Source: an uncultured Alphaproteobacteria bacterium (GTDB lineage: Bacteria > Pseudomonadota > Alphaproteobacteria > HIMB59 > GCA-002718135). Taken from it: DNA of 44,467 nucleotides. The position numbers were made by a program, and so were the translations under genes. Each line of letters opens with the position of its first letter. The first letter of the stretch is position 1. The stretch spans positions 1 to 44,467 of the forward strand of contig CACJEE010000007.1 in the NCBI GenBank assembly GCA_902592345.1. The letters run 5' to 3'. Of the stretch, positions 16,114-41,308 are shown in pieces. The notes beneath the pieces were generated by a model, which was not told where the DNA came from, searched no databases, and was given only the letters and a program-made list of their open reading frames with translations.

Positions 16114-16114
16114 A

Positions 16115-17050: not shown

Positions 17051-17051
17051 C

Positions 17052-19024: not shown

Positions 19025-19025
19025 C

Positions 19026-19475
19026 TTAAATCTCTAAATAATAATTATAATATTCTGTGTCTCTTTTATAATCAAGTGATACATATAAAGACTGTGCTTT
19101 TTTATTATTTATGGCAGTAGATAATTCAACTATTTTCATTCTTTTTTTAACAGCATAATCTTTTGCTTTTAACATAAGCATTCTACCATAACCTAATCTT
19201 CTATATTTTTTTTCAACATAAAGGTCATATAAAATTAATTTTTTATTAATATTCAATGAATCAAAGGTTTCGTATAGCTGAACAAATCCAGCTGCTTCTA
19301 ATGATTTTGAGTAACAAATAAAAATAGTAGATTCTTTATTTAAAATTCTTTGCTTAATATAATTAGTTGATGCTTTTATGTTTGATTTATATTTATAAAA
19401 TTGTCTATACAAATCAAATAAGTGCCCAACATCTTTAATGTGTTTAGAAGTTGCTTTTATAATTTTAATTCTCAT
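19026..19475 (-). CDS. GNAT-family N-acetyltransferase
   Basis: LYDLYVEKKYRRLGYGRMLMLKAKDYAVKKRMKIVELSTAINNKKAQSLYVSLDY. Confidence 0.88.
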   Translation of the reverse strand: MRIKIIKATSKHIKDVGHLFDLYRQFYKYKSNIKASTNYIKQRILNKESTIFICYSKSLEAAGFVQLYETFDSLNINKKLILYDLYVEKKYRRLGYGRMLMLKAKDYAVKKRMKIVELSTAINNKKAQSLYVSLDYKRDTEYYNYYLEI

Positions 19476-22026: not shown

Positions 22027-22049
22027 TATAAAAATACAGTATCATTCGC

Positions 22050-22063
22050 TGAATAAGCATTCA
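22050..22063. promoter_or_regulatory. Palindromic operator copy A (TGAATAAGCATTCA), 24 bp upstream of the class III aminotransferase start
   Basis: Inverted repeat TGAAT-N4-ATTCA. Shares 20 nt TGAATAAGCATTCAATGAAA with the reverse complement of copy C. Confidence 0.8.
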
Positions 22064-22083
22064 ATGAAAATTGTATATTTTTA

Positions 22084-22860
22084 TTACTTATCTTGCCATT
22101 TAGGATCAGTTTTTTTCACAAATGAAGATGCTCCTTCTTTTAAATCTTGACTGCCATAGACTTTTTTAACAGTTTCTAACGATCTTAGAATTTCAAAAGA
22201 AGGTATTTCTTTTTCATTTTCTGTTTCACGCAAAACTTCTTTAATTGAAGAATAAATTAAATTAGGTCCATTTGAAATTTTTTCTGCTATTTCCCAAGCT
22301 CTTTTTAATAACTCATCTTTATTAACAATTTCATTAATCAAACCCCAATGCTTAGCTTCTTTTGTATCCATCCATCTTCCAGTCATTAAAAACTCTACTG
22401 CTACGTGATAAGGAATTCTTCTTCTTAATTTTATTGTAGCAGCATCTGCAACAACTCCTACATTAATTTCAGGTAATGCAAATGTTGCATGTTCAGAAGC
22501 TATTATAATATCTGCTGAAATCATTATTTCAAAACCGCCACCACAAGCAATACCATTTATAGCAGCAATAATAGGTTTGTTCATATTTGGTAATTCTTGC
22601 AAACCACCAAATCCTCCTACACCATAATCAGCATCCGCTGCTTCTCCTTCATTAACAGCCTTAAGATCCCATCCTGCTGAAAAAAATTTTTCTCCGCCAC
22701 CAGTAATAATAGCTACTTTAAGATTAGGGTTATCTCTAAAATCAGAAAATATATTACCTAAAATTATGCTTGTCTTAGCATCAATAGCATTAGCTTTTGG
22801 TCTATCAATTGTAACTTCAAGAATTGAGTCTATAATTTTAGTTTTGATTGGTTCGCTCAT
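22084..22860 (-). CDS. Enoyl-CoA hydratase/isomerase family, CaiD (crotonobetainyl-CoA hydratase)-like
   Basis: RPKANAIDAKTS, FSAGWDLKAVNEGE, ACGGGFEIMISADIIIASEHATFALPEINVGV. Confidence 0.88.
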   Translation of the reverse strand: MSEPIKTKIIDSILEVTIDRPKANAIDAKTSIILGNIFSDFRDNPNLKVAIITGGGEKFFSAGWDLKAVNEGEAADADYGVGGFGGLQELPNMNKPIIAAINGIACGGGFEIMISADIIIASEHATFALPEINVGVVADAATIKLRRRIPYHVAVEFLMTGRWMDTKEAKHWGLINEIVNKDELLKRAWEIAEKISNGPNLIYSSIKEVLRETENEKEIPSFEILRSLETVKKVYGSQDLKEGASSFVKKTDPKWQDK

Positions 22861-24914
22861 AATTCTTCAAAATAATGTATTAGTGCATCTACTGCAAACA
22901 CACCTTTATTTTTTTTACAAACTATTAGTGGATTAATTTCTATTTCGTGTAATTTATTGATATTTTTTTCAGCAAATTTAGATAGTGAAAGTATTACTTT
23001 AATTAAACTATCTATATCCGCTCTATCTTGATTTCTGTAACCAAATAATATCTTACCTATTTTCATATTTTTTAATTCATTTTGAATATCTTTTTTTGTT
23101 AATGGTAATAATAAAGTTTTAGTCTCTCTAATTAGTTCTGCATAAATTCCTCCTGCGCCAATTATTATTACAGGACCAAATTCATCATCAATTTTAATTC
23201 CTACTAAAATTTCTATTAGTGAATCTTTGATCATTTTCTCTAATAAAATTTGATTTTTAAATTTTTTTGTTTTGGACACTAATTCATTAATATTTTTAAT
23301 ATTAGTTATGACACCATTATGTTCAGATTTGTGAAAAATTTGGTTTGAGTGAATTTTAGCAACTAATGGAAAACCAATTTTAGCACTATCTTTTTTTAAT
23401 TTAATTTTATTAGAAATTATTCCTTTAGGGGTTTTAATTCCAATTTTTTTTAGAAATTTTTTTGACTCAAATTCAGAGTAAGTTTTAATATTTTTATTCT
23501 TCTTCTTCTTTATTTTATAGTTTTTTACAGCAGATTCATTCTTCCAAATACTTCCAATTTCTATTGCTTTTTTAATTGTGAATAAAGCCTCTTTCATTCC
23601 TTGAAGAGGTGAAATTCCATTATTAATACATTTATCTCTAATATGTTTTGGCATTGTGTCTGATAATGAAGAGATGAGGCTTCCATTTTTATATTTTTTT
23701 GCAACTTTTATAAATTTATCAACTATTGCATCCCACTCATCAGTATCGCATTTTTCCATATTTGGAAAATCAAGCATTAGGCTTATTGAACTAAAATTAT
23801 TTTTAAAAAAAATTTTGAATGTTTTTTCAATATTATCAGGATCATTCCAGTTATATGTTTGCATATCGAAAGGATTAGAAACTATTACACCTGGATGATT
23901 TACTTTTTGTAGATCGGTTTTAATTTGTGGTTTAATTTTTCCAAATTTTAAATTTAAAGCTTCTGCAGCATCTCCTAGCATTGCCATATCTCCACCTGAG
24001 GGACCCATAATTGATATTTGATCATTTGAGATAACCCCATGGGTATGAAAATATTTAAGTAACTCAGTAAGTTCTGATAAAGTTTCACATCTGGCAACTC
24101 CCATTCTTTTAAATAAAGCATCATAAATATTTTCTTTGCCACTTAATGAACCTGTATGAGTTAAGATTGTCTCGGATGCAACTTTAGATCTCCCAACTTT
24201 TACTATCGCTATTGGGATTTTTTTTTCTTTGGAGTTTTTTAAAACTCTAATTAGTTTATTAATGCTAGTAAAACCCTCAGCATATATACCTATTGCAGTA
24301 ACTCTTTTATCTTTTAGAGCATATTCAATTGTATCCTCGATACTTATCTTGGCCTGATTTCCTAATGATATGATATATCCTATTGGAAGAGATCTGTGAT
24401 TAAAGCTAATTGTGTTTCCAATAGTTCCACTTTGACAAATAATAGCTACACCTTTGTTTGAATGACTACCTGCAACTTGATCTGACCATACTGAAACTTT
24501 ATCAAAGTAATTAATAAATCCATAGCAATTAGGACCTAAAAAAGGAGTTTTTCCAGAATTGGCTAATAATTTTTTTGTTTTTTCTTTGCCTTCTAAATTA
24601 TTTAATTCTGAAAATCTTGAAGCTAAGCATACAGCTCCTCCAGCACCCATATCAGAAATATCTTTCATTAATTTAATTGTCAAATCATTTGAAACTGCAA
24701 TATAAACACAATCAGGGATTGATGGTAAGTCAGCTAAACTTTTATAATATTTCTTTTTTTTTGAACTGCTTCTTTTAGGATTGATGTGCCAAATTTTTCC
24801 CTTAAAGCCAATCTTTATATTTTCATCAAAAACAAAATCAGCCCAGTAACCACCAATTATTGCAAGTTTTTTTGGTCTAAATAATTTACTTAAGTTCACA
24901 AAATTAAGCCCCAA
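22857..24914 (-). CDS. NDP-forming acyl-CoA synthetase (fused alpha/beta acetate-CoA ligase family)
   Basis: CoA-binding N-domain; LGPNCYGFIN, CQSGTIGN and LTHTGSLSGKENIYDALFKRMG (catalytic His); C-terminal ATP-grasp with GFPLVAKIHS and EINPLIV. Confidence 0.88.
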   Translation of the reverse strand: MGLNFVNLSKLFRPKKLAIIGGYWADFVFDENIKIGFKGKIWHINPKRSSSKKKKYYKSLADLPSIPDCVYIAVSNDLTIKLMKDISDMGAGGAVCLASRFSELNNLEGKEKTKKLLANSGKTPFLGPNCYGFINYFDKVSVWSDQVAGSHSNKGVAIICQSGTIGNTISFNHRSLPIGYIISLGNQAKISIEDTIEYALKDKRVTAIGIYAEGFTSINKLIRVLKNSKEKKIPIAIVKVGRSKVASETILTHTGSLSGKENIYDALFKRMGVARCETLSELTELLKYFHTHGVISNDQISIMGPSGGDMAMLGDAAEALNLKFGKIKPQIKTDLQKVNHPGVIVSNPFDMQTYNWNDPDNIEKTFKIFFKNNFSSISLMLDFPNMEKCDTDEWDAIVDKFIKVAKKYKNGSLISSLSDTMPKHIRDKCINNGISPLQGMKEALFTIKKAIEIGSIWKNESAVKNYKIKKKKNKNIKTYSEFESKKFLKKIGIKTPKGIISNKIKLKKDSAKIGFPLVAKIHSNQIFHKSEHNGVITNIKNINELVSKTKKFKNQILLEKMIKDSLIEILVGIKIDDEFGPVIIIGAGGIYAELIRETKTLLLPLTKKDIQNELKNMKIGKILFGYRNQDRADIDSLIKVILSLSKFAEKNINKLHEIEINPLIVCKKNKGVFAVDALIHYFEEL

Positions 24915-26055
24915 GAGGTCTTAATAAAGATCTTGAGATAATATGCCTTTGGATTTCACTAGTACCTTCCCAAATTCTCTCTATTCGAGCATCACGCCAG
25001 ATTCTTTCTAACGGTATATCAGACATCAAACCCATTCCTCCACATATTTGGATTGCTTCATCTGATACTTTACCAAGCATTTCTGTGCAGAATAATTTTG
25101 TCATTGCTGCATCTTGTGAGGAAAGAGTTTTTTGATCAATCTTCCATGCTGACTCAAGTAACATTAGATTTGCAGCTTTAATATTTGTAGCCATATCTGC
25201 TAATTTAAAAGAAACACCTTGAAACTTTCCTATTACTTTTCCAAATTGTTTTCTATTAGCGGACCAGTCAAGCGCAATATCAAATGCTCTTTCAGCTCTC
25301 GAAACAGAAGTTGCTGCAACAGTTAATCTAGTTGCCTCTAACCAAACATTCATCAATTCAAAACCTTTGTCCTTTTCACCTAAAATGTTTTTTCCAGGTA
25401 TTCTACAGTCATTAAAATTGATCACATTATTTACATATCCTCTATGAGAAACACAGTCATAGCCTTTAGCTACTTCAACACCTTTTTGATGAAGGTCCAC
25501 CAAGAAACATGATAATAAATTTCTTCCTTGCTCATCTGTTCCAGTTGATGCAAATAAAACGACAAAATCTGAAATATGAGCGTTTGATATAAAATGTTTA
25601 GTTCCATTGATTATCCAATCATCACCATCTTTTTTTGCATTTGTTTTCATTCCTCTAAGATCAGAACCAGCTTCAGGCTCAGTCATTGCAATACAATCTT
25701 TTCTTTCACCAGTAATTGCAGGTTTTAAGTATTGATCAATTAATTCACCTTCGCAAGCCATTAAGATATTTTGTGGACGCCATGCAATTTCAGCTAAGGC
25801 AAGAGATGCAAAACCTAAATGTTTTTCAACTAAAGTTAAATCAAAAGCATTTAAGCCACCTCCACCATGTTCGACTGGCATATTGCAAGCATACAATCCT
25901 GCTTCAATACTTTTTTGCTTAATTTCATCATATAATTCTTTAGGTAGATTATTTGTTTTTTCTAAAAGTTCTTCATGTTGAAGTAATTCTGTTTTAACAA
26001 AAGCATTAGTTGTATTTATTAAAAGATTTTGCTCTTCTGTAAGATTAAACTCCAT
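24904..26055 (-). CDS. Acyl-CoA dehydrogenase (CaiA-like)
   Basis: AMTEPEAGSDLRGMKTNA, GTKHFISNAHISD, ANRKQFGKVIGKFQGVSFKLADM and ICGGMGLMSDIPLERIWRDARIERIWEGTSEIQ. Confidence 0.93.
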   Translation of the reverse strand: MEFNLTEEQNLLINTTNAFVKTELLQHEELLEKTNNLPKELYDEIKQKSIEAGLYACNMPVEHGGGGLNAFDLTLVEKHLGFASLALAEIAWRPQNILMACEGELIDQYLKPAITGERKDCIAMTEPEAGSDLRGMKTNAKKDGDDWIINGTKHFISNAHISDFVVLFASTGTDEQGRNLLSCFLVDLHQKGVEVAKGYDCVSHRGYVNNVINFNDCRIPGKNILGEKDKGFELMNVWLEATRLTVAATSVSRAERAFDIALDWSANRKQFGKVIGKFQGVSFKLADMATNIKAANLMLLESAWKIDQKTLSSQDAAMTKLFCTEMLGKVSDEAIQICGGMGLMSDIPLERIWRDARIERIWEGTSEIQRHIISRSLLRPLGA

Positions 26056-26056
26056 T

Positions 26057-27244
26057 TTATATATCAGCTGGTACTTTATGCCGTCTTTGTGGATTAAAAA
26101 ACTGTTTTTTTACAACTAAACACTCAGCCCAAATTTTTTTATACTCTAATTCTTCAGGATGATATATTTCAGCGAAAACTTTTGAGCCAATTTTCATATG
26201 GTCCTTATCAACATAACCAAAAGCTATATTTGATTTTAAGCTTGGTGACCACATACCAGCTGTAACAATTCCAATTTCTTTTCTGTTTTTATCGTATAAT
26301 ACCGAGCCAATAGCAGGTTTATCACCTTGAATATCTAATCCAACTAATTTTTTAGTTAAAGGTTTCTTCTTCAGATCATTTAGAATTCTTTTGCCAGTAA
26401 AGTAGTTTTTATTTAAATCTACTAACCAGCCCATACCTAGTTCAAATGGAGTCCTCATTCTATTTGGTCTCAATGCTTGTTCTGCAGACATAAAGTCTGC
26501 ATTTGGTTGAATAAAACCTGCTTCAATTCTAACCATTTCTAGAGCATTCATACCTGCAGGTAATATTTTATAGTCTCTATTAAATTTAAATAATGAGTCC
26601 CACACATTAATTGCTTCTTCAGGATTGCACCATATTTCATAACCTAAATCTCCAGAAAATCCTGTTCTTGATATAGTAACTTTTGAGCCATTAAGGTCAA
26701 AATTATCAAAGAAAAATGGCTTTAGATTTTCTATATTCTCAACATTTAATAAATGTAAAATTTTGCAAGAAAGGGGTCCTTGAAATGCTAAAGCAGCAAT
26801 AGAGTCACTAACATCTTTAACTTCAACGTCAAAACCAATAGCTGTATCTGAAAACCAATTCAGGTTTCTCTCTGCGCAAAAGATTCGTAAATGATTTTTG
26901 TCAAAACAAAAGACAGTACCATCATCGATAACATTTCCGTCTTCATTACACCAAATAATATACATTACTTGATTAGGTTTAATTTGCGTTACATCTCTTG
27001 TGACTAATTTATCTACAAATTTGATAGCATCTTTTCCTTTGATGTCATATTTGTGCATTGGCGTTATATCTAAAACTCCTGCTGTATTTCGCATTGAGGT
27101 GTATTCTAGTTCTGTATTAGAATATTCTCTTGCAATTTTATATCCAGCCCAACGATACCAATCATTATTATAACAAGCTTCAAAAGTTCTTTTATGAAAA
27201 GGTGTTTCCAGAAGAGGTTTTGTAAATGAAAGTGTATTATCCAT
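26057..27244 (-). CDS. GcvT/aminomethyltransferase-family protein
   Basis: SMRNTAGVLDITPMHKYDIKGKDAIKFVDKLVTRDV, ALAFQGPLS, RTGFSGDLGYEIWC and ALEMVRIEAGFI. Confidence 0.9.
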   Translation of the reverse strand: MDNTLSFTKPLLETPFHKRTFEACYNNDWYRWAGYKIAREYSNTELEYTSMRNTAGVLDITPMHKYDIKGKDAIKFVDKLVTRDVTQIKPNQVMYIIWCNEDGNVIDDGTVFCFDKNHLRIFCAERNLNWFSDTAIGFDVEVKDVSDSIAALAFQGPLSCKILHLLNVENIENLKPFFFDNFDLNGSKVTISRTGFSGDLGYEIWCNPEEAINVWDSLFKFNRDYKILPAGMNALEMVRIEAGFIQPNADFMSAEQALRPNRMRTPFELGMGWLVDLNKNYFTGKRILNDLKKKPLTKKLVGLDIQGDKPAIGSVLYDKNRKEIGIVTAGMWSPSLKSNIAFGYVDKDHMKIGSKVFAEIYHPEELEYKKIWAECLVVKKQFFNPQRRHKVPADI

Positions 27245-28715
27245 TAACTTTATCCTTCAGTAATTGTTTTGCAGCATTAATGCCATTAATGCCTGTGATA
27301 CCTCCTCCTGGATGTGTACCCGCACTACAAAGATATAAGCCATTAATAGGAGTGGAATATTGGGAGGACCCATAAAATGGACGCATCATTAATAGCTGAT
27401 CTATTTCCATATCGCCATGACTCCAGTGACCACCGCATATATTATATTTATTTTCAATATCATTAGGTGTTTCAATTATCGAAGAAATAATTTGATTTTC
27501 CTCAATAAATTTTTCCAAAATCAATTTAACATTTGATAATATTTTTTCTTTATCATGCGAAGAGTTGGTTAAATAAGGTATAAAGTAGACATTAGCAGAT
27601 AATTGATTTTTATTAATGTAAAATTCTAAACAAGGATTTAATGATAATTTATTATATTTATTGTCATTAAAAGCGTGTTCAATATATTTTATATCTGGAG
27701 CATAAACAAATTTACCGGATGAATAACTTGAGTCTAAATTTTTAATTTTTATCTCACTTTCAAATTCAATATTAACTTTTGCCACTGTACCTTTGGTACG
27801 ATAATTTTTAGTTCTTCTAATGAAGTCTGTATCAAAATTAGCGGCTCCAACTAATTCTAAATATGTAGTTTTGGGGTCTGTATTTGAGATTATTGCAGAT
27901 GCTTCAATTACTTCTCCTGTATTAAGCAAAACTGAATTAACATTTTGATTTAAAATATTAATTTTTTCTACCGTCTTATTAGTTTGAATTTCAACATTAT
28001 TTTTTTTACAAATGTTCTCAATAATATTTAAGAAAGAGTTTGTATTGAATTTATTAATTCTAAATAATGAATTATTTGTAGCTTGGTTATACAATAAGTT
28101 TAGTATAGAGCCAGGAGATCTTGCACCAAGATTTGTTCCAATAACAGCCTCATTAGACATTAATCCCTTCAAAGTGTTGCTTTCTATATTATCCTCTAAA
28201 TCATCTGCAATATTTAAGCCAATCACACGTAATAATTCCCGCATGTTTTTTTTACCAAGACGTCTAACCTTAAAACCCATAGAAAATAATTGCCAAATAT
28301 CAGATTTTGAACCTGATTTAACTCTTGGGGGTCTTTTAAACATGAATGACCTCAAGGTTCTGGCAAATAAATTATATTTATTAATTAAGTTGATAAAATT
28401 TTTTTGATCAGAATTACTTGCACTAGTTTGTAAAAATTCAATATTTTTACTATCATTTATCTTAAGTACAGTATGATTTAAATCTTCAGATAAAGCAGAA
28501 ACAAAATTTTCACTTACATTTTTTTCAAATTTAATATTTAGTTCATCTATTACTTCTTTAGAAATATAACTCAACGTTTCAGCATAGTTAGCAAGACCAC
28601 CTAATTTTTCATTCTTTTCTATTACTAGAACTTTTTTTCCTTTTTTTGATAAAACACATGCTGCGACTAAACCATTATGCCCACCACCTATAATTATAAC
28701 ATCAAATTTTTTCAT
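27237..28715 (-). CDS. Phytoene desaturase-like FAD oxidoreductase (paralog 1)
   Basis: DVIIIGGGHNGLVAACVLSKKGKKVLVIEKNEKLGGLA; C-terminal NGLYLCSAGTHPGGGITGINGINAA. Confidence 0.88.
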   Translation of the reverse strand: MKKFDVIIIGGGHNGLVAACVLSKKGKKVLVIEKNEKLGGLANYAETLSYISKEVIDELNIKFEKNVSENFVSALSEDLNHTVLKINDSKNIEFLQTSASNSDQKNFINLINKYNLFARTLRSFMFKRPPRVKSGSKSDIWQLFSMGFKVRRLGKKNMRELLRVIGLNIADDLEDNIESNTLKGLMSNEAVIGTNLGARSPGSILNLLYNQATNNSLFRINKFNTNSFLNIIENICKKNNVEIQTNKTVEKINILNQNVNSVLLNTGEVIEASAIISNTDPKTTYLELVGAANFDTDFIRRTKNYRTKGTVAKVNIEFESEIKIKNLDSSYSSGKFVYAPDIKYIEHAFNDNKYNKLSLNPCLEFYINKNQLSANVYFIPYLTNSSHDKEKILSNVKLILEKFIEENQIISSIIETPNDIENKYNICGGHWSHGDMEIDQLLMMRPFYGSSQYSTPINGLYLCSAGTHPGGGITGINGINAAKQLLKDKVNG

Positions 28716-30340
28716 ATATAATGTGTGTTAATCTGTTTTTTTAAATCTATTAAAATTTCTCTCGCTGCATTAGCTCCAGGAGCACCCATTACTCCTCCGC
28801 CTGGATGAGTGCTAGACCCACACATGTATAGATTTTTAATTGGGGTTTTATACTGAGCATAGCCTGGGATTGGTCTATTAAACATTAATTGATCCATAGT
28901 AAGTTCCCCTTGGAATATATTACCTTCAGTTAAACCTACTTCTTGCTCTAATTCTTTTGGTGTTCTTATTTCTGCATGATTAATTATATCGTTAAAATTT
29001 GTTGAATAGTTTCCTATCCTACTCATAACATGTTTACCAAATTCTAATCTTTTTTCTTCTGTCCATCCTCCATCAGCTAAGTTGTAAGGCACATATTGTA
29101 CAAATACAGACATATAATGTTTTCCTTGAGGAGCCATAGTAGGGTCATTAATACTTGGAATACACATGTCTACATAAGGCAAGGATGACCACCTACCATC
29201 TTTCCAATCATCATAAGCGCCCTCCATCTCTTCTATACTTTGTGTAATATGAAGATCTCCTGTTCCTGCTGGATCTCCTTCAGGAATACTTTTCCAAATT
29301 GGCAGATCATCTAATGCTATATTTAACTTTCCTGATGAACCTCTAATTTTAAATTTCTTTACTGCATTATAAAAATCTTCTGGTAATTCTTTTTTCTCAA
29401 CCACTTTAAGAAAAGTTCTTTTTACATCAAGATTGGAAACAATTTTATTTGCATAAATTTCATCTCCATTTTCTAGAACCATCCCATAACTTTTATTATT
29501 TTTAATTAAAATTTCATTAACTGGCGAACCTGCTTTTATCTCACCACCACTGGCCTCTAAAGAAGCTGCCATTGCTTTTGTTATAGATCCCATTCCTCCT
29601 CTTGAGTATCCCCAAGCACCAACTGTACCATCAACCTCACCCATATAATGATGTAATAGGACATAAGCAGATCCAGGAGAGTAGGGGCCTAATGCAGTAC
29701 CTATAATTGCAGAACCAGCAAGATGTGCTTTTACAATATCAGATTCAAAATACTCCTCTAAATAATCTCTTACACTCATAGTCCAAAAACGAATGGTATC
29801 ATAAATCTCTTTTTCTCCTAAACCACCTAGCTCATCTTTTGCTGCAAAAAATTTTGCAAAATCAAATAATCCCATTATATCTTTGGGCGCAAATGACGTA
29901 GGATCTGGAGGTGTCATTTTTAAAAGAGGTTTTATTATTTTACATTGTCTCATAACATCTTTCCCAAACCTATCGTAAGCCTCTGCATCTTTTTTGGAAA
30001 ATTGAGCTATTGAACGATAAGTTAAGTCATGATCATTATAGTGGGCGTAGTATCTTCCATCATCAAGCATTGATGCACTTCCTTCATAAGGAATAATTTG
30101 AAGGCCATATTTTGATAATTCAAGATCTCTAAAAATCTCGGGACGTAATAAGCTACATACATAGGAGCAATTTGAATATGTCCATCCCGGATGTATTTCA
30201 CGACTAACAGCTGCTCCACCAACATAGCTTTGTTTCTCTACCACTACTACTTTTAGGCCAGCTTTTGCCAAATAACATGCTGTGGTAAGCCCATTATGAC
30301 CTCCACCAATGATAGCTACATCATAAATTGATTTTGACAT
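28712..30340 (-). CDS. Phytoene desaturase-like FAD oxidoreductase (paralog 2)
   Basis: DVAIIGGGHNGLTTACYLAKAGLKVVVVEKQSYVGGAA; C-terminal NLYMCGSSTHPGGGVMGAPGANAA. Confidence 0.9.
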   Translation of the reverse strand: MSKSIYDVAIIGGGHNGLTTACYLAKAGLKVVVVEKQSYVGGAAVSREIHPGWTYSNCSYVCSLLRPEIFRDLELSKYGLQIIPYEGSASMLDDGRYYAHYNDHDLTYRSIAQFSKKDAEAYDRFGKDVMRQCKIIKPLLKMTPPDPTSFAPKDIMGLFDFAKFFAAKDELGGLGEKEIYDTIRFWTMSVRDYLEEYFESDIVKAHLAGSAIIGTALGPYSPGSAYVLLHHYMGEVDGTVGAWGYSRGGMGSITKAMAASLEASGGEIKAGSPVNEILIKNNKSYGMVLENGDEIYANKIVSNLDVKRTFLKVVEKKELPEDFYNAVKKFKIRGSSGKLNIALDDLPIWKSIPEGDPAGTGDLHITQSIEEMEGAYDDWKDGRWSSLPYVDMCIPSINDPTMAPQGKHYMSVFVQYVPYNLADGGWTEEKRLEFGKHVMSRIGNYSTNFNDIINHAEIRTPKELEQEVGLTEGNIFQGELTMDQLMFNRPIPGYAQYKTPIKNLYMCGSSTHPGGGVMGAPGANAAREILIDLKKQINTHYI

Positions 30341-30359
30341 TTTATTTTCTTATATTTCT

Positions 30360-30375
30360 TTGAATGAGCATTCAA
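30360..30375. promoter_or_regulatory. Palindromic operator copy B (TTGAATGAGCATTCAA) between divergent FAD oxidoreductase and tetR genes
   Basis: 7-bp arms TTGAATG/CATTCAA around a 2-nt centre. Same motif as 22050 and 41273. Confidence 0.82.
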
Positions 30376-30403
30376 CCAAATTTCTTGTAAAATTAACGAT
30401 TTT

Positions 30404-31063
30404 ATGAAAAAATATTCTTTTTTTGAACATAAAATGAATAATAGAAATCAGAGACTAGCAAATAAGAAAAGTAGTAATTTAAAACTTATTTCTTCAACAA
30501 TTAAAAATTTATCAAAAAAAGGAATTAATGAGTTAACAATGCATGATGTTTCAAGTGGAGCAGGCTTATCTCAAGGTATTGTTAATTTTCATTTTAAAAG
30601 TAAAGAAATCTTATTAATTGAAACGTTAAAATTTATATCAAATGAATATTTAAAATCGTTTGATAAATACATTAAAAAATCAGAAAATGATCCAATCATG
30701 AAATTAGTAAATATGATTAATAATGATTTTAGTCCAAAAATTTGTTCACCTGAAAAGTTATCTGTTTGGTTTACTTTTTTAAGTGAAACAAAATTTAAGC
30801 CTGCATATCGTCAAATTTGCAGAGAAAGAGATTTATATTATCAAAATGTTACAGAGGATATATTTGAAGAATTAATTAAAAAAGAAAAAAATAATTTATC
30901 TAAAAAAAACTTAGCTATTGCTTTTCATGCTTTAATTATGGGACTATGGTTAAATCAATTAGATGAACCAATGAAATATAATAGAAAAGAATCCAAAAGA
31001 ATTTGTCTAGATTATTTAAAATCACATTTCCCAAAACAATTTAAAGGAATAAAAAATGTATAG
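30404..31063 (+). CDS. TetR-family regulator, BetI-like
   Basis: N-terminal HTH NLKLISSTIKNLSKKGINELTMHDVSSGAGLSQGIVNFHFKSKEILL and C-terminal ALIMGLWLNQLDEP, as in the BetI family. Confidence 0.85.
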   Translation: MKKYSFFEHKMNNRNQRLANKKSSNLKLISSTIKNLSKKGINELTMHDVSSGAGLSQGIVNFHFKSKEILLIETLKFISNEYLKSFDKYIKKSENDPIMKLVNMINNDFSPKICSPEKLSVWFTFLSETKFKPAYRQICRERDLYYQNVTEDIFEELIKKEKNNLSKKNLAIAFHALIMGLWLNQLDEPMKYNRKESKRICLDYLKSHFPKQFKGIKNV

Positions 31064-32231: not shown

Positions 32232-32232
32232 T

Positions 32233-33117
32233 ATGAATTCAACCATACAAAATATATATTTCAGAAGTGATCAGGCTAAAGCCTATACTCTTTTAAGTCC
32301 TGCATTAATTTTAGTTATTTTTGCTATGGCCGCACCAATGATTGTCATGATTTTTACAAGTTTTAACACGCAGATCTCTATGATTGAAATTGATAGAACT
32401 TTTACAACAGGTAGATATGAAGATTTTTTTTCAAAACCAATTTTTTCAATGCTTTTATTTCGTTCAGTCAAGATATCATTTTTTGTTACACTTTTGACTT
32501 TAGTAACTACCTATCCTTTAGCTTATTACATCGCCTTTTATGTTAAAAAAAATAAAATGCTTTGGATAGTGTTAATGACACTTCCTTTTTGGACAAGTTA
32601 TTTATTAAGAGTTTTTTCATGGAGAGTCATCTTAGGAAATAAAGGTGTAATTAATTCTGCTTTAATGGGAACTGGAATGATTGATGAACCTCTTGGTTTT
32701 TTATTATACAACCAAGCAGCTGTAATAATAACTTTATCTCATGCATGGGCAGCCTTTGCTATTTTACCTTTATATGTATCTCTTGATAAAATTGATAAGT
32801 CACTTTTGGAAGCATCTTATGATCTTGGTAATACAAAATTTGAAACCTTTTGGAGAGTTACTTTTCCATTGTCTTTACCGGGAGTTATTGGAGCAATATT
32901 AATTATTTTTATACCAACAGTAGGAGATTATGTGACGCCCCAGTTAGTTGGAGGGACTGACGGCCGAATGTTATCTAATATGATTCAAAGTTTATTTGGA
33001 AGAGCCAACAATTTTCCTTTAGGTGCAGCTTCGGCTGTATTAATGCTTACAACTGTGTGCTTAATTGCTGCTTTGGTTACTTACATTACTAAAAAAGTTT
33101 CAATGAGGATGTCTTAA
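32233..33117 (+). CDS. Spermidine/putrescine-type ABC transporter permease (PotB-like)
   Basis: TLPFWTSYLLRVFSWRVILGNKGVIN and LLEASYDLGNTKFETFWRVTFPLSLPGVIGA. Confidence 0.9.
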   Translation: MNSTIQNIYFRSDQAKAYTLLSPALILVIFAMAAPMIVMIFTSFNTQISMIEIDRTFTTGRYEDFFSKPIFSMLLFRSVKISFFVTLLTLVTTYPLAYYIAFYVKKNKMLWIVLMTLPFWTSYLLRVFSWRVILGNKGVINSALMGTGMIDEPLGFLLYNQAAVIITLSHAWAAFAILPLYVSLDKIDKSLLEASYDLGNTKFETFWRVTFPLSLPGVIGAILIIFIPTVGDYVTPQLVGGTDGRMLSNMIQSLFGRANNFPLGAASAVLMLTTVCLIAALVTYITKKVSMRMS

Positions 33118-33923
33118 TGTATAATAAGAACAACACACTTTTTATCTATTGTGTTTTTTACTTTGCTTTTTTGTATATCCCTGTTCTTTTATTGCCAATT
33201 TTCTCTTTTAATGACTCATTTCACATGGTGTTTCCTTTGAAAGGGTTTACTTTTGATTGGTATATACAAATGTGGAATAAAAGTAGACTTCACCAAGCCC
33301 TGTTTAATAGCATTAAAGTAGGCATTATTGCTTCAGTAGTAAGTACATTTATAGCCTTATTTGCAGCTAAAGCATTTACAAGATACAAAGTTAAATTCCA
33401 TGGACTATCTTATGGAGCAATACTTTTACCATTCATAATTCCTGAAATAATAATTGCAGTAGCTTTGATAGTTATATGGACTAGTATGGGATTAAAACTG
33501 GGTTTAATACCTGTTACAATTTCCCATATTCTTTTTTGTACTCCTTTTTGCATGCTAATTTTAATATCAAGAATGGAAGGCTTTGATAAAAGTTTAGAGG
33601 AGGCCTCAATGGATTTAGGTGAAAATTCTTTTTGGACCTTTTGGAGAGTTACTTTCCCATTATTACTGCCAGGTATAATTGCTTCATTACTTTTAGCATT
33701 CGTTATCTCATTTGATGAGTTTATATTAGCTTTCTTTTTAAGCTCTAGTGACCAGACACTTCCAATATATATGTGGAGCCAATTAAGATTTCCAAAAAAA
33801 TTCCCTCATATATTGGCTTTAGGCGCTATAATTATTATAGTCACTTCATTAATTGTTATGACAGCTTATTGGTTAAGAAATCTTGGACAAGGTAAGAAAA
33901 AAGATTTCAGTATAGGTATTTGA
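33117..33923 (+). CDS. Spermidine/putrescine-type ABC transporter permease (PotC-like)
   Basis: LEEASMDLGENSFWTFWRVTFPLLLPGIIASLLLAFVISFDEFILAFFLS. Confidence 0.9.
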   Translation: MYNKNNTLFIYCVFYFAFLYIPVLLLPIFSFNDSFHMVFPLKGFTFDWYIQMWNKSRLHQALFNSIKVGIIASVVSTFIALFAAKAFTRYKVKFHGLSYGAILLPFIIPEIIIAVALIVIWTSMGLKLGLIPVTISHILFCTPFCMLILISRMEGFDKSLEEASMDLGENSFWTFWRVTFPLLLPGIIASLLLAFVISFDEFILAFFLSSSDQTLPIYMWSQLRFPKKFPHILALGAIIIIVTSLIVMTAYWLRNLGQGKKKDFSIGI

Positions 33924-33927
33924 AATT

Positions 33928-35010
33928 ATGAGCATTAAAAATTACATAAAAATTAAAAATTTATCCAAAAGTTTCGGAGATGTTGAAGTTTTAAAAAATA
34001 TTAACCTTGAAGTAGAAGAGGGTGAATTTTTTTCACTTCTTGGACCTTCTGGATGTGGCAAAACAACTTTACTAAGAATATTAGCTGGTTTTGAATATCC
34101 CTCAGAAGGTGAAGTTTTTTTTGATGATACCAATGTAACATCTCTCCCACCAAACCTTCGTCCCTCAAATATGGTATTTCAAAATTATGCAATTTTTCCA
34201 CATATTAATGTTCAAAGAAATATTGAGTTTGGATTAAGAAAAGAAAATTTAAGTAAAGATGAAATGCAACAAAGAGTAGAAAATGCTCTGAAGATGGTTC
34301 AACTAGAAGGTTATGAAAATAGATACTCAAATCAGTTATCAGGAGGGCAAAGACAAAGGATTGCACTTGCAAGAGCTTTAGTCAAACAACCAAAGGTGCT
34401 ACTTCTTGATGAACCACTTGGTGCTCTTGATAAAAAATTAAGAGAAGAGATGCAAATTGAATTAAGAAATTTGCAAAAAAGCTTAGGTATTACTTTTATT
34501 TTTGTTACCCACGACCAAGAAGAGGCAATGACTATGTCTGATAGAATAGCCGTTATGGATGAAGGTAATATTCTCCAAGTATCTCCACCAAAAGAAATTT
34601 ATCATAATCCTAAAAATAAATTTGTTTCTCAATTTATTGGCAATATTAATATATTGGGAGCCAAAATTAAAAGTGTTTCAAATGAAAATCTTTTAATTGA
34701 AGTAGATTGTTTTGGCTCAATTCAGTTAAAAAATTATCAACAAATAATTGAAAATGATAGAATTAATATTGCTATTAGACCTGAGGAAATAACAATTTCC
34801 AAAATAAGTGACTCCAACTATGACTATAATTTTCAAGGTAATGTTAAAAATATATCATTCTATGGAGAAAGCACTTATTTTTATGTGCAATTAAATAACT
34901 CTGATAAAATTTTAATGGTATCAAAAAATGAAACCAAAGAGCCTTTTAGTGAGAATGATAATTGTTTTGTGAATTTTAGTTCTAATAATTTAAAAATTAT
35001 AAAGGATTAA
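33928..35010 (+). CDS. Spermidine/putrescine-type ABC transporter ATP-binding protein (PotA-like)
   Basis: LGPSGCGKTTLLRILAGFE, LSGGQRQRIALARALVKQPKVLLLDEPLGALDKKLR and a TOBE-like C-terminus. Confidence 0.93.
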   Translation: MSIKNYIKIKNLSKSFGDVEVLKNINLEVEEGEFFSLLGPSGCGKTTLLRILAGFEYPSEGEVFFDDTNVTSLPPNLRPSNMVFQNYAIFPHINVQRNIEFGLRKENLSKDEMQQRVENALKMVQLEGYENRYSNQLSGGQRQRIALARALVKQPKVLLLDEPLGALDKKLREEMQIELRNLQKSLGITFIFVTHDQEEAMTMSDRIAVMDEGNILQVSPPKEIYHNPKNKFVSQFIGNINILGAKIKSVSNENLLIEVDCFGSIQLKNYQQIIENDRINIAIRPEEITISKISDSNYDYNFQGNVKNISFYGESTYFYVQLNNSDKILMVSKNETKEPFSENDNCFVNFSSNNLKIIKD

Positions 35011-35012
35011 AA

Positions 35013-35036
35013 AAACCCGCTCTTAAGAGCGGGTTT
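35013..35036. terminator. Bidirectional intrinsic terminator between convergent genes
   Basis: Perfect 24-bp palindrome AAACCCGCTCTTAAGAGCGGGTTT, GC-rich against the AT-rich background, with A/T tracts on both sides. Confidence 0.92.
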
Positions 35037-35044
35037 AATATTTG

Positions 35045-36157
35045 TTAGCCTCCAATAGTATACTCAGCCCATTTTTGTTCGATGTAGTCATTAACTTCAT
35101 CACTAGGACTATTATTAAAATTACCATTAGCAAGATGTGTAATTGGATCTTGAGCAACACCTCTTTCAGCAAGTGCTTCTTTACTTATTGTATCAAAACC
35201 CTTTTTATTAGAGTGCCCATATCCCCATTCACTCAACATATAAGCCGAAGATTCAGCACTTATTGCTGCATCAATTAAATCATATGCAAGATCAAGATTT
35301 GGTGCATCTTTATGCAAAACTAAACCACACGACCAAGTAAGAGTACCTTCTTTTGGACTCATCATAGGATAACCTGAATTCCAAGATGATTCATTCCAAC
35401 ATAAAGCAGCCCATACTTCTTCATCCATAAGCGCTTGTTCCATGGTTGCAGTATCAGTTGTAAACATTTTTACATTACCTCTCCAACCTGCGGCTTTTTC
35501 ATAAACCATATCAACATCAGCTTTTGTGATATTTTCCATTTTCTTAACATCAAGCCCAAGAGCAATTGCATAAACATACCAAGAGTCTGCTGCAGAGTCC
35601 ATTATGGCAAATTTACCTTTCATTCTTTCATCCCATAAAAGACTAAAACTTTCTTCTCCTGGTTTTACCCAATCAACTTTATCAGGATTATAAACGATAG
35701 ATGTATCACCCCAATCAACTGGCGCCATCCAATAGTTACCATCAAAGTTTATTGTACTCATATTTATTAACTCTGGAAATAAATCATTCCAGTTACTTAA
35801 TCTGCTAGTATCAAGAGGTTGAATTACTCCAGCTCTATTCCATCTTGGTGGATCTGAGTGACATGGATGAGCAAGATCAACTACATATCCTGAACGTAGT
35901 TTTTGTAGTCCCTCTTCGGCATCTCCAAAAATAGAATATTCAGGATCACCTCCATGCTTCTCAATATAACCAGAATATAGACCAGGATCATCGTAACCAC
36001 CCCAAGTAAATAGTTGAGCTTGTTGTTTAGCAAATGCAGTTTTTGGTAATAGAGGTATTGTTGTAGATAGAACACCAGCTGCACCAAGACCTTTTAACAT
36101 TTGTCTTCTTGTTAGCTCACCATTTACAATTCGTTTTGATAAATCGTATTTAGGCAT
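35045..36157 (-). CDS. Spermidine/putrescine-type ABC transporter substrate-binding protein with Tat-like signal
   Basis: LTRRQMLKGLGAAGVLSTTIPLLPKTAFA; LFTWGGYDDPGLYSGYIEKHGGDPEYSIFGDAEEGLQKLRSGYVVDLAHP (PotD-like). Confidence 0.88.
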   Translation of the reverse strand: MPKYDLSKRIVNGELTRRQMLKGLGAAGVLSTTIPLLPKTAFAKQQAQLFTWGGYDDPGLYSGYIEKHGGDPEYSIFGDAEEGLQKLRSGYVVDLAHPCHSDPPRWNRAGVIQPLDTSRLSNWNDLFPELINMSTINFDGNYWMAPVDWGDTSIVYNPDKVDWVKPGEESFSLLWDERMKGKFAIMDSAADSWYVYAIALGLDVKKMENITKADVDMVYEKAAGWRGNVKMFTTDTATMEQALMDEEVWAALCWNESSWNSGYPMMSPKEGTLTWSCGLVLHKDAPNLDLAYDLIDAAISAESSAYMLSEWGYGHSNKKGFDTISKEALAERGVAQDPITHLANGNFNNSPSDEVNDYIEQKWAEYTIGG

Positions 36158-36281
36158 AAATTTTTCCTTCCAAATTATATATTCATAACAACAAATAAAT
36201 TGCCTTTTTTCAACACTTTTTTTAAAAATTATATAAATTAACTTTCATTTATGCCCTAAAATGCTTAGTTAAATTTATTTT

Positions 36282-37664
36282 ATGAAATCAAAATACAAAA
36301 AAGTGGAGTTAGCAAGCATTGAAGAGTTCAGCTACTTTTTAAAACAAAATAAAAAAATTAAATATCTTGATGTGATTTTAGGCGATTTATCAGGCATAAT
36401 TAGAGGTAAAAGAATTCCAATTTCTGATGCAGATAAAATTTTTAAATCTGGAGTTCAATTTTGTTATTCAACTTTTTTACTTGATACCTCAGGTTATTGT
36501 CCAGATGCAGAAGGAAGGGGTTTTACAGATGGTGATCCTGATGCGAATTATTATCCAGTAAAAAATACCCTATCTTTAATTCCATGGCACAAAGATAGTA
36601 TTGCTCAAGTATTAATTACAATTCAAGATGAGTCTCGTTATTCTTCTATCATGGATCCAAGAAATGTTTTAGCTAAAGTTTGGGATGATTTTGCAAAATT
36701 AAAACTTTATCCAAGAGTTGCTTTTGAATTAGAATTTTATTTAATTAAAAGAAGAAATAAACTTGATGAAAACCCAACACCTCCAACTTCAAAGAGAAAT
36801 AAAAGGCAGACTGAAGGAACGCAAGTTTATGGAATGAGTGAGCTTGATGATTTCTATGATTTTTTAGAAGAAATAAATAAGTTTTGTAAAATTCAAAATA
36901 TACCAGCATCAACAGCATCTTCTGAATTTGCCCCTGGACAATTTGAAATTAACCTTAATAGTACTGTTGATTTATTAAAAGCAGCAGATGACTCAGTTTT
37001 ATTAAGAAGACTTGTAAAAGAAACAGCTATCAAACATGGTTATGAGGCAACCTTTCTTTCAAAACCTTATTTAAATGAAGCCGGCAGTGGTATGCATTTG
37101 CATTTAAGTTTATATGATAAAAATTATAAAAATGTTTTTTCTAAAAACAAATTAAAAAATAAATATTTACTTAATGCCATTGGAGGGCTTCAGAAAACAA
37201 TGTATGAATCTATGGCTATATTTGCCCCAAATATTAATTCATATAGAAGATTTTTACCTGATCAATTTGTTCCAGTAAATTCAAGTTGGGGTCCAAATAA
37301 CAGATCTGTTGCTTTTAGGATTCCAGTTAGTAATGAAGATGCAACAAGGATTGAACATAGAGTAGCTGGAGCAGAGGCTAACCCCTATTTGGTATTATCT
37401 TCTATTTTATCAGGCATTATGTATGGTTTTAAAAATAAAATAATGCCAGATAAGCCTAGAACAGATAATGCTTGTGATAATCCAGACAAAGAGATGCCTT
37501 TAAACATAAGTGAAGCACTATCTAAATTAGAGCGCTCAAAAGTAATGAGCAAATATCTGACAAAAGAGTATGTAAAAATTTATGTTGATTTAAAAAGGAA
37601 AGAGCAGGAGTCTTTTAATTCAGAAATTTCAAACATAGAATTAAAATGGTATCTTAATCTTTAG
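36282..37664 (+). CDS. Glutamine synthetase family, gamma-glutamylputrescine synthetase (PuuA)-like, copy 1
   Basis: PRVAFELEFYLIKR, EFAPGQFEINL, AGSGMHLHLSL, NINSYRRFLPDQFVPVNSSWGPNNRSVAFRIP and RIEHRVAGAEANPYLVLSSIL. Confidence 0.9.
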   Translation: MKSKYKKVELASIEEFSYFLKQNKKIKYLDVILGDLSGIIRGKRIPISDADKIFKSGVQFCYSTFLLDTSGYCPDAEGRGFTDGDPDANYYPVKNTLSLIPWHKDSIAQVLITIQDESRYSSIMDPRNVLAKVWDDFAKLKLYPRVAFELEFYLIKRRNKLDENPTPPTSKRNKRQTEGTQVYGMSELDDFYDFLEEINKFCKIQNIPASTASSEFAPGQFEINLNSTVDLLKAADDSVLLRRLVKETAIKHGYEATFLSKPYLNEAGSGMHLHLSLYDKNYKNVFSKNKLKNKYLLNAIGGLQKTMYESMAIFAPNINSYRRFLPDQFVPVNSSWGPNNRSVAFRIPVSNEDATRIEHRVAGAEANPYLVLSSILSGIMYGFKNKIMPDKPRTDNACDNPDKEMPLNISEALSKLERSKVMSKYLTKEYVKIYVDLKRKEQESFNSEISNIELKWYLNL

Positions 37665-38523
37665 TTTCTCCATTAAGACTAAGTATTTCTTTGTAAAGCT
37701 CAGGTCTTCTATCTCTAAAAAGTCCCCAATTTCTTCTAAATAAATGATTTTCTTCAGTATCTATTTCAGCTAGTATAACTTCTTCCTTGTCCTTTGAAGC
37801 TTCAGCAATTATTTTACCAGATCTGTTGCAAATAAAAGATCTTCCATAAAATCCGTTAACCTGACCTTTTACTGACTCTGAGCCAATTCTATTTGATGCA
37901 ACAATAGGCATGATGTTTGCTGCTGCATGACCCTGCATTACAGTCTGCCATGCATCAGAGCTGTCATAAGTGCTCATGATTTCATCTCCAATAGCTGTCG
38001 GATAAAACAAAACTTCTGCTCCTTTTAAAGCCATTATTCTAGCAGCTTCAGGAAACCATTGATCCCAACAAATTCCAATACCTATTTTACCATAAGCTGT
38101 ACTCCAAATTTTAAAACCTGTATCACCTGGATTAAAATAGTACTTTTCAAGATATCCAGCACCATCAGGTATGTGTGACTTTCTGTATTTACCCAGTATT
38201 TTACCATCAGCATCAATAACCGCTATAGAATTAAAATATGCATTATTATCTTTTTCAAAAAAACTTATAGGCAAAACAACTTTATGTTTTTTTGCAACAT
38301 CACTCATTTTATTTATTAAGGGATTATTTTCAAAAGGTTGGGCTAATTTGAATATTTCTTCATCATATTGAATACAAAAATAAGGAGTTTGAAAGAGCTC
38401 TTGTAATAAAATTATATTTGCTCCTTGTTCAGCTGCTTTTTCAATTAAATGGATAGATTTTTTTATATTATTTTCAATTTCCCAATCACAAGTCATTTGA
38501 GTGGCTGCTACTTTAATTTTCAT
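37654..38523 (-). CDS. aguB: N-carbamoylputrescine amidase (nitrilase superfamily)
   Basis: VAATQMTCDW, LLQELFQTPYFC, KYRKSHIPDGAGYLEKYYFNPGDTGF, GIGICWDQWFPEAAR; next to aguA. Confidence 0.93.
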   Translation of the reverse strand: MKIKVAATQMTCDWEIENNIKKSIHLIEKAAEQGANIILLQELFQTPYFCIQYDEEIFKLAQPFENNPLINKMSDVAKKHKVVLPISFFEKDNNAYFNSIAVIDADGKILGKYRKSHIPDGAGYLEKYYFNPGDTGFKIWSTAYGKIGIGICWDQWFPEAARIMALKGAEVLFYPTAIGDEIMSTYDSSDAWQTVMQGHAAANIMPIVASNRIGSESVKGQVNGFYGRSFICNRSGKIIAEASKDKEEVILAEIDTEENHLFRRNWGLFRDRRPELYKEILSLNGETKD

Positions 38524-38737
38524 TTTTTATTCTCTTTTTCTCTTCTAAGTAATTATTTAAACTTATAATTTTTTTGCTTGCATTAGTTTGAAACAGACCC
38601 GGTATTAAAGAGTGAATAAATGCCATCATTGAAGCTTTAAGTAATTGAAATGATATATTTTGAGCTACAAACATATGTTGAAAATAAGTTTCATCAGCAT
38701 CAATGTAGTGTTTTTTTGATTTTTTAAACAAATTCAT
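38513..38737 (-). CDS. Small DUF6356-like protein (start assigned at internal ATG; ORF track extends to 38773)
   Basis: MNLFKKSKKHYIDADETYFQHMFVAQNISFQLLKASMMAFIHSLIPGLFQTNASKKIISLNNYL. ATGA overlap with the aguA stop and 11-nt overlap with aguB. Confidence 0.75.
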   Translation of the reverse strand: MNLFKKSKKHYIDADETYFQHMFVAQNISFQLLKASMMAFIHSLIPGLFQTNASKKIISLNNYLEEKKRIKNEN

Positions 38738-39783
38738 TGTTGAATGCTTAATGGTTGTTGTTGGGTTATGCAATGAATATTTCCACCACCAAGAGATATA
38801 TCTATACCATTAATTACTAAAACTTTCCTTTTAGGAAAAACTGATTGAATAATACTCTGAGCATTTTTATCAGCTTTTTCATCATCAAAACTAGGCATTA
38901 CTATTCCATTATTTGCTATATAAAAGTTAATATAAGAACTTGGCTCATCATCGTTTGGTATTAGTCTTTTATAAGACATTTCAATTTCTATAACTTCTAA
39001 TGGACGACCATTAGCATCTTTAGATGTTCTTAATATTTCTAAATTTTCATTAATTTTTTCAAAAAAAGGATCCTGTCTATCATTACAAGATAAGGCTAGA
39101 ACTTTTGATTGATCAACAAAACAAGCAATATTATCAATATGTCCATCAGTGCCCTCATCTGTACCGTGTTTAAGCCAAATAATTTTTTTAATATTCAAAT
39201 ATTTTTTTATGTTATCCTCTATTTCCTCCTTTGATAAATTAGGATTTCTGTTTTTATTTAATAAGCATTGCTCAGTTGTGATTAGTGTGCCCGTACCATC
39301 AACGTGTATGGACCCACCTTCTAGTACCATTTGTGATTTAAAATATGTTGCAGAACTTTTTTCTATCATAAATTTAGCAATTTTATTATCAGAGTCATGT
39401 GGTGAAAATTTTCCCCATCCATTAAACTCCCAATCAACACCTCCTAATTTATTCTGATCATTGATTAAAAATGTAGCCCCGGAATCTCTTGCCCAACAAT
39501 CATCATTTTTAAATTCATAAATATTAACTGAATTATGAAGGAGTTTTTTTGCTATTTCGATATCCTCCGGGTGGACAATCATATTTACTTTTTCAAACTT
39601 TGATATTGCTTTTGAAACTTCAGCCCATTTGTATCTTCCTTTTTCAAAATCAAAATGAGACCAACTTTCAATTTCTTTATATGAATTTTTATCTTTAAAC
39701 TCATGAGGCCATTGCATCCAACAACATTCATGAGGATTCCATTCTGGGGGCATGAAAAAATTATATTGTTGAGGATATGACAT
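38734..39783 (-). CDS. aguA: Agmatine deiminase
   Basis: PPEWNPHECCWMQWPH, NDDCWARDSGATFLIND, LEGGSIHVDGTGTLITTEQCLLN and LGGGNIHCITQQQP. Confidence 0.95.
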   Translation of the reverse strand: MSYPQQYNFFMPPEWNPHECCWMQWPHEFKDKNSYKEIESWSHFDFEKGRYKWAEVSKAISKFEKVNMIVHPEDIEIAKKLLHNSVNIYEFKNDDCWARDSGATFLINDQNKLGGVDWEFNGWGKFSPHDSDNKIAKFMIEKSSATYFKSQMVLEGGSIHVDGTGTLITTEQCLLNKNRNPNLSKEEIEDNIKKYLNIKKIIWLKHGTDEGTDGHIDNIACFVDQSKVLALSCNDRQDPFFEKINENLEILRTSKDANGRPLEVIEIEMSYKRLIPNDDEPSSYINFYIANNGIVMPSFDDEKADKNAQSIIQSVFPKRKVLVINGIDISLGGGNIHCITQQQPLSIQQ

Positions 39784-39918
39784 TCAATCAGTTACATTAC
39801 AGTTTGTGCATTTTCTAAATGAAAAATCACCTTTTTTTCCTTTTTTGCTTTGTAAATCACTACAAGCTCCCAAAAAAATTAATGAAAAAAATAAAGTTAA
39901 ACAAATTATTTTTATCAT
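39784..39918 (-). CDS. Small putative lipoprotein (44 aa)
   Basis: Manually translated: MIKIICLTLFFSLIFLGACSDLQSKKGKKGDFSFRKCTNCNVTD*. Lipobox LGAC. Start overlaps the upstream stop (TAATG). Confidence 0.7.
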   Translation of the reverse strand: MIKIICLTLFFSLIFLGACSDLQSKKGKKGDFSFRKCTNCNVTD

Positions 39919-41255
39919 TAATATTTATCCATATATTTGTAATAAGCTAAGGCTAGTCTTAAGTAAAATAATCTTAATTTAGGAAAGGGAAATTTACTTG
40001 GTAGCCCTTTATAAAGTTTTGATATATTCAAATCTTTACTGTTTGATACAATTAATTTTGCAAGTTCATTACCTGACCATGGTGCTGTGTTAACTCCATT
40101 TGCCTGATAACCAAAACTATAATAAATTTCATCATCTTCAATTTTCCCAATTGAAGGTGAAAATTTATTTGTTACTGCAACAAGCCCTCTCCAATGAAAA
40201 TCAATATTAACATTATTCCACTTAGGAAAAACCTTTTTCATTTGTTGCTCCATATTTTTAGATTTCTCTAATGAAGATTCTTCACTGCCAATCAAATCAC
40301 CTCTTGCTCCAAATAAAAATCTATTATCCTTTAATAACCTATAATAAAAAAGAAGATTTCTTATATTTAGGACTGGATTGTTTGTAATAAAATTATGAGA
40401 TTTAATTTCTTCACTTGTAAGTGGTCTTGTAATAATAATATTTGATATTACTGGCAAAATCATATTATTTAGTTTTGGAAAGATATCATCTTTATAAAAA
40501 CCGTTAGTTGCCATAACAATTTTATTGGCTTTTACAATGCTTCCATTTGAAATTATTTTGAACTTTCCTTTAAACTTTTCAATTTTTGTAACTTTACTTT
40601 TTTGAAAAATTTTAACTCCTGAATTATTGGCAACATTGGCAATACCTAGTAAAAATTTTAAAGGATTAATAGCAAACCCAGGTTTATAAGACATAGCTCC
40701 AAATTGCTCATTACCACCGTGACCAATTTCATTAAACTCTTCTTTAGAAAAAACTTTTGTTTCAATACCAAATTCTTTTTTGTAGGTTGCAGCTTCTTCT
40801 TTTATCCCTTCAAAATAACTTGGATGAGGAGCTACTTCATAGTTACTATCACCTGTTAAATCACAATCTATATCGTATTCTTGAATTATATTTTTTGTAA
40901 AATTTGAACCCTCAATAGTGTTTTGAAAAAATTTTTTTGTTTCATTTTTTCCATATTTATTAAACATTTTTTTAACAGACATTTTTGCTGGAGGAATACA
41001 GCAAAATCCTGCATTTCTTCCTGAAGAACCCCAGCCAATATGACCTGCCTCAAGTAATACTACATCCTCATTATATTTCTTTGCTAATGATAATGCGCAT
41101 GACAATCCAGTATATCCTCCACCAATTACCGCTATATTTGTATTAATGTCTTTATCTAAAGTTTTATATTTATCTTTTGTGTCTACTGTAGATTCCCAGT
41201 AACTATTTACAGGATTTTCAAATTTATAAATGTCATCGTGATATAAGTTAGCCAT
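39918..41255 (-). CDS. FAD-dependent amine oxidase, PuuB/DadA-like, copy 1
   Basis: NIAVIGGGYTGLSCALSLAKKYNEDVVLLEAGHIGWGSSGRNAGF, WRGLVAVTNKFSPSIG and GYQANGVNTAPWSGNELAKLI. Confidence 0.9.
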   Translation of the reverse strand: MANLYHDDIYKFENPVNSYWESTVDTKDKYKTLDKDINTNIAVIGGGYTGLSCALSLAKKYNEDVVLLEAGHIGWGSSGRNAGFCCIPPAKMSVKKMFNKYGKNETKKFFQNTIEGSNFTKNIIQEYDIDCDLTGDSNYEVAPHPSYFEGIKEEAATYKKEFGIETKVFSKEEFNEIGHGGNEQFGAMSYKPGFAINPLKFLLGIANVANNSGVKIFQKSKVTKIEKFKGKFKIISNGSIVKANKIVMATNGFYKDDIFPKLNNMILPVISNIIITRPLTSEEIKSHNFITNNPVLNIRNLLFYYRLLKDNRFLFGARGDLIGSEESSLEKSKNMEQQMKKVFPKWNNVNIDFHWRGLVAVTNKFSPSIGKIEDDEIYYSFGYQANGVNTAPWSGNELAKLIVSNSKDLNISKLYKGLPSKFPFPKLRLFYLRLALAYYKYMDKY

Positions 41256-41272
41256 AAGTTAGTATAAATTTC

Positions 41273-41290
41273 ATTGAATGCTTATTCAAT
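41273..41290. promoter_or_regulatory. Palindromic operator copy C (ATTGAATGCTTATTCAAT), centred in a 53-bp divergent intergenic region
   Basis: 7-bp perfect arms ATTGAAT/ATTCAAT. Reverse complement shares 20 nt with copy A. Confidence 0.85.
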
Positions 41291-41308
41291 CAATATTATA
41301 TAATAGAT

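Follow-up and report, generated by a model that had tools for sequence, protein, structure and literature searches.

The same palindrome is found at three promoters in the 44,467-nucleotide stretch of DNA analysed here (the window). Very probably it is bound by the only TetR-family regulator found in the assembly, so that polyamines and methylated amines would be taken up and degraded under joint control. We hold with considerable confidence that the three copies, A, B, and C, are operators of this BetI-like TetR and form one regulon (Table 1). Streamlined SAR11-type marine bacteria are described as poor in regulators. In the present case the single TetR detected in the assembly appears to link polyamine uptake, agmatine and putrescine breakdown, and the oxidation of methylated amines. 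Its ligand would show the substrate of the oxidase/GcvT operon, and the common operator allows annotation of a TetR subfamily in many Alphaproteobacteria. For a test of the regulon, a single protein and three short DNA probes would suffice.

Table 1. Predicted operators, promoter elements, and genes of the regulon in the window.
Feature	Position	Strand	Remarks
Operator A (predicted), CTGAATAAGCATTCAA	22049-22064	.	Gap from hydratase stop to aminotransferase start; kept in 21 genomes
Operator B (predicted), TTGAATGAGCATTCAA	30360-30375	.	Between divergent tetR and oxidase operon; 23/23 orthologous loci
Operator C (predicted), TTGAATGCTTATTCAA	41274-41289	.	Between divergent puuB and Rieske genes; 23 loci
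-10-like hexamer TACTGT (A)	22036-22041	-	17 bp from arm TTGAAT 22059-22064 as putative -35, predicted from sequence
-10-like hexamer TATATA (Rieske gene)	41297-41302	+	17 bp from arm TTGAAT 41274-41279, predicted from sequence
-10-like hexamer TATACT (puuB)	41261-41266	-	17 bp from arm TTGAAT 41284-41289, predicted from sequence
BetI-like TetR regulator	30434-31063	+	PF00440 and PF13977; ORF opens at 30404
tetR operon continued: acyl-CoA dehydrogenase, PotB-, PotC-, and PotA-like	31056-35010	+	Overlapping/abutting ORFs
Six-gene operon: two FAD oxidases, GcvT-like, CaiA-like dehydrogenase, NDP-forming CoA ligase, CaiD-like hydratase	22084-30340	-	
Aminotransferase-MFS-GNAT-HD-like operon	18455-22026	-	Under operator A
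puuB-like oxidase, small ORFs, agmatine deiminase, N-carbamoylputrescine amidase-like	37654-41255	-	Under operator C
Rieske oxygenase (GbcA-like, below cut-off)	41309-42541	+	Under operator C

The pattern TGAAT-N4-ATTCA was read from the sequence at 22050-22063 (A, TGAATAAGCATTCA), 30361-30374 (B, TGAATGAGCATTCA), and 41275-41288 (C, TGAATGCTTATTCA), which agrees with the places claimed in the earlier note. By chance 0.38 copies would be expected in the shuffled window, and three copies were reached in one of 100 shuffles. A and the reverse-complemented C had been reported to match over 20 nt, TGAATAAGCATTCAATGAAA, and this could also be read straight off the sequence. Each site was said to lie within about 65 bp of a start codon. 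The aminotransferase start is about 24 bp from A, and B is situated about 20 bp ahead of the first oxidase gene and about 60 bp ahead of the probable tetR start. Site C is, as had been noted, almost centred, with 19-20 bp to each of the two divergent starts.

The operons at A, B, and C that had been proposed as members of the regulon all carry conserved sites. In the left half of the window, the carnitine-type genes (15106-17942), ProXWV, and the betA/betB-like genes lack sites with up to two mismatches, and they are therefore not predicted to be regulon members. A second local regulator, of the ScfR type (PF09856, HTH_3, Peptidase_M78), is encoded at 13670-15109, near the carnitine-type genes that lack the TetR operator. 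For the six-gene block, amine oxidation/demethylation with CoA steps seems a better reading than choline catabolism. The protein called HD (18455-19024) gave no Pfam family match at E 0.001, and it contains the HD-like sequence LLHDIGDE.

The assembly to which the window belongs comprises 1.33 Mb and is 76% complete. A plain count of the loose motif in this assembly gives no support to the regulon, as TGAAT-N4-ATTCA occurs eight times and the reversed control seven times. The position of the copies does support it: of the eight, only A, B, and C are intergenic, and the other five are found within ORFs. Thus the loose pattern is not enriched genome-wide, but its intergenic copies are confined to this locus. 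When the whole assembly was searched with TTGAATGNNCATTCAA, B and C were the two top matches (0 and 1 mismatch). Another 19 matches have two mismatches, and all of the 13 that were inspected are located within ORFs. Extra strict matches in two relatives were rejected as regulon members, one coding site being in a cytochrome c1 gene. This near-perfect operator sequence within cytochrome c1 (G058:C9:48859 and G061:C26:2354; L237, L238) is a coding coincidence common to both relatives.

The motif is kept at the orthologous promoters in the family. The TetR is encoded in 23 of the 110 family genomes, and the first FAD oxidase gene is present in exactly the same 23. In all of these, site B is found between tetR and this oxidase gene, flanks included. 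The Rieske gene was found at 24 loci, one of which (G059) was left out of the count for site C since the gene is only partial; site C is present in the puuB/Rieske gap in 23 of 23 readable gaps. Site A is located about 30 bp ahead of the aminotransferase gene in 21 of 21 genomes with a readable gap and preceding CoA genes, and one of these copies (G058) has one arm base changed. The columns of the operator core display an identity of 0.95-0.97, compared to 0.80-0.86 in the remaining gap sequence, and 12-15 of the 16 core columns are invariant. The mean number of strict-motif sites is 4.2 in genomes with the TetR and 0.6 in those without (p ~1e-14, 110 genomes), a difference to which joint inheritance of one genomic island contributes.

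The earlier note had placed the start of the TetR at 30404. This was corrected to 30434 as the probable start, since in several relatives the frame is interrupted by stops shortly before the homologous Met (open frame of 207 aa). The protein contains both TetR_N (PF00440, 32.6 bits, cut-off 24) and the BetI-type domain TetR_C_6 (PF13977, 47.5 bits, cut-off 27). The assignment to BetI holds only as far as these domains reach, as the protein falls below both curated BetI cut-offs (TIGR03384, 90.1 bits against 201.3; NF001978, 86.2 bits against 118). Both proteins would share a palindromic operator with TTGA/TCAA ends that is situated over the -35 box (PMC12442346). However, the BetI box ATTGACG*CGTCAAT agrees with TTGAATGNNCATTCAA in these ends only, while core and spacing differ. 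BetI is a choline-responsive repressor of the bet genes and targets betA/betB; the predicted targets here are oxidase/GcvT, PotABC-type transport, agmatine/putrescine, and Rieske genes. The gene tetR has FAD oxidases, GcvT, and pot genes as neighbours, and not a bet cluster; this holds for the window and for the nearest of the distant homologues. Judged by curated models, predicted operator, and gene context, the TetR is thus not BetI.

Homologues of the window TetR were also collected from distant Alphaproteobacteria. This set comprises 35 loci whose proteins are about 30-40% identical to it, 14 found with a seed based on the recognition helix and 21 by profile search, and the 350 bp upstream of tetR were searched for the operator. 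Sites with at most two mismatches were found in 14 of the 35 (0.14 expected) and sites with at most three mismatches in 19 (0.32 expected), the expected numbers being based on random windows drawn from these loci. The profile-found subset (n=21) accounts for five and eight of these, respectively, four being from one genus. All the sites lie about 100-185 bp ahead of the matched coding stretch, and one perfect copy is found in a locus of 71% GC. About half of the 35 homologues have no clear site right upstream of tetR, partly where tetR is located downstream in an operon; several such operons have sites with one to three mismatches before their first gene. The layout of the nearest distant loci is oxidases-GcvT-aminotransferase <- operator -> tetR-potDBCA, and puuB-like or Rieske genes adjoin homologues of the window TetR in other Alphaproteobacteria. 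The invariance of the recognition helix LSQGIVNF among the matches of the seed search was set aside, as it is partly a product of the seed. In the profile search the helix is mostly S-x-G-I-V-N-F, and Q may be replaced by R, H, P, or V. The distant homologues are a stronger test of the link between TetR and operator than the co-occurrence of motif and TetR in the family genomes.

The TetR might regulate only its own divergent promoter at B, with a different regulator of similar operator binding at A and C. This is improbable. It draws on the 20 nt common to A and C, which is more than either shares with B, and on site C persisting in three genomes of other genera in which the TetR was not detected (G103, G108, and G109; 91-93% complete). 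The cores of A, B, and C are nevertheless the same, and a second TetR_N protein was not found in the window's own assembly or in G002, G001, and G106, although the own assembly is 76% complete and could be missing another. One was detected in G005. In the three genomes without detected TetR the contigs end within the block, at aguA-GS1. In G109, another contig begins within GcvT and continues into the aminotransferase gene, and one of G103 begins within the aminotransferase gene. In these two, the missing tetR is most likely located in an assembly gap. As a refutation of a common regulator, the TetR-less genomes were therefore set aside for G109 and probably for G103.

A single regulator for all three sites also fits the arrangement of the promoters. 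In essentially every variant, the operator arm TTGAAT at A, and each of the two arms at C, is separated by exactly 17 bp from a -10-like hexamer; the hexamer is TACTAT/TACTGT at A and TATAAT/TATATA and TATACT/TATAAT on the two sides of C. Toward the oxidase operon at B the corresponding distance is 15-17 bp, and the tetR promoter at B displays no clean -35/-10 pair. The start codons at C are found within a few nucleotides of the hexamers in the window, suggesting that the mRNAs from C may be leaderless or nearly so. The 53-bp divergent gap (41255-41309) apparently holds two promoters, one operator, and near-leaderless starts for two operons.

A TetR dimer would bind TTGAATGNNCATTCAA at B and control its own promoter and the oxidase operon, and the same TetR would bind at A, controlling the aminotransferase operon, and at C, controlling the puuB-agmatine and Rieske genes. 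The arm TTGAAT at A and C would double as -35, so that bound repressor would exclude RNA polymerase, and at C a single dimer would shut off the two divergent promoters together. The TetR would be released by a pathway substrate, probably a polyamine or N-methylated amine that the PotABC-type transporter brings in. PotABC-type transport genes and amine oxidase genes regularly accompany the TetR, which suggests such an imported amine, more likely than choline, as the effector. The sites, their conservation, the link to the TetR, and the promoter geometry were computed, and from these we infer binding, repression, and effector.

The operator covering the -35 elements at A and C, with a published BetI footprint that likewise covers the -35 box (PMC12442346), points to blocking of -35 binding as the likely mode of repression. 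As the sign of regulation at A and C is predicted from sequence alone, and TetR-family activators are known, among them LuxR of Vibrio harveyi, described as both activator and repressor (PMC2628434), the TetR might instead activate or have a mixed effect there. We consider this improbable, since an operator over the presumed -35, as at A and in both directions at C, is in the usual position for repression. Very improbably, the sites bind no regulator and are palindromic by chance, being simply the -35 elements of strong promoters that diverge. In favour of this, TTGAAT resembles the -35 consensus and at C a -10 is found 17 bp from each arm. Against it, both arms are kept at A although the promoter there points in one direction only, and distant copies are found upstream of tetR in GC-rich genomes.

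Repression by the one TetR would place this system among the local TetR repressors that regulate themselves through an operator in a divergent promoter and have a few further operators nearby. As in these, a site is located between divergent genes, further sites are found at neighbouring operons, and the regulator is encoded beside its targets; by sequence, a conserved palindrome lies in its own promoter (23/23) and the operator overlaps promoter elements of the targets. Differences are that site A is tied to an operon split by inserted genes, and that the operator arms appear to double as -35. The polyamine utilization genes of SAR11 and AEGEAN-169 (potABCD, puuB, spuC) encode the same types of transporter and enzymes; no regulator turned up in the parts of these reports consulted (PMC8437039; PMC10308909), whereas a dedicated TetR with operators is proposed here. 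An earlier description of this amine regulon was not found in the open literature, most subscription journals being outside the scope of the search. We regard the regulon as soundly predicted; it is undescribed, but the kind of gene control is an ordinary one.

In four distant Alphaproteobacteria (L160, L162, L164, and L171) and in two genomes of the family, G001 (genus g2) and G109 (genus g6), the aminotransferase gene follows directly or nearly so after GcvT and has no operator of its own. In the genera g1 and g4, three CoA-pathway genes are found between the two, and site A precedes the aminotransferase gene. Site A is thus present in 21 of 21 cases with the insertion and in none of six without. 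The pattern is strong, but the shared ancestry of the sequences keeps it from being a formal test. In G109 (L248:1-420), GcvT and the aminotransferase gene are separated by a short ORF whose start resembles a signal peptide (MKNLLLALIFFLFTSSIFAADEK), and no operator is found there. On balance we favour, with some reservation, an undescribed alphaproteobacterial TetR subfamily (helix LSxGIVNFxF, operator TTGAwTGNNCAwTCAA) that would govern polyamine-type uptake and amine oxidation/demethylation class-wide. In the HIMB59/AEGEAN-169 lineage, the CoA-gene insertion would have broken up the ancestral operon, and the detached aminotransferase gene would have come back under the same regulator through a new operator-promoter with arms that double as -35.

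A degenerate operator-like element, ATTAAATAGACATTCAAT, is found about 30 bp ahead of the GS1 homologue in some relatives (L036:2014, L055:5923, L058:7330, L059:12610, L063:12572, L065:10074, and L069:6092). These relatives, which are some of those examined, have a divergent pot/GS1 cassette. The element is absent from the window and was not counted as a fourth operator. The stretch ACADH2-potBCA-potD-GS1 (31056-37664 in the window) is found in strongly different versions (L036, L039, L058, and L069 compared to L034), with protein identities of either about 98-100% or 49-77%, beside a near-unchanged tetR or six-gene operon. This suggests cassette exchange via recombination. FAOX2, GcvT, and the CoA ligase display a similar mosaic variation.
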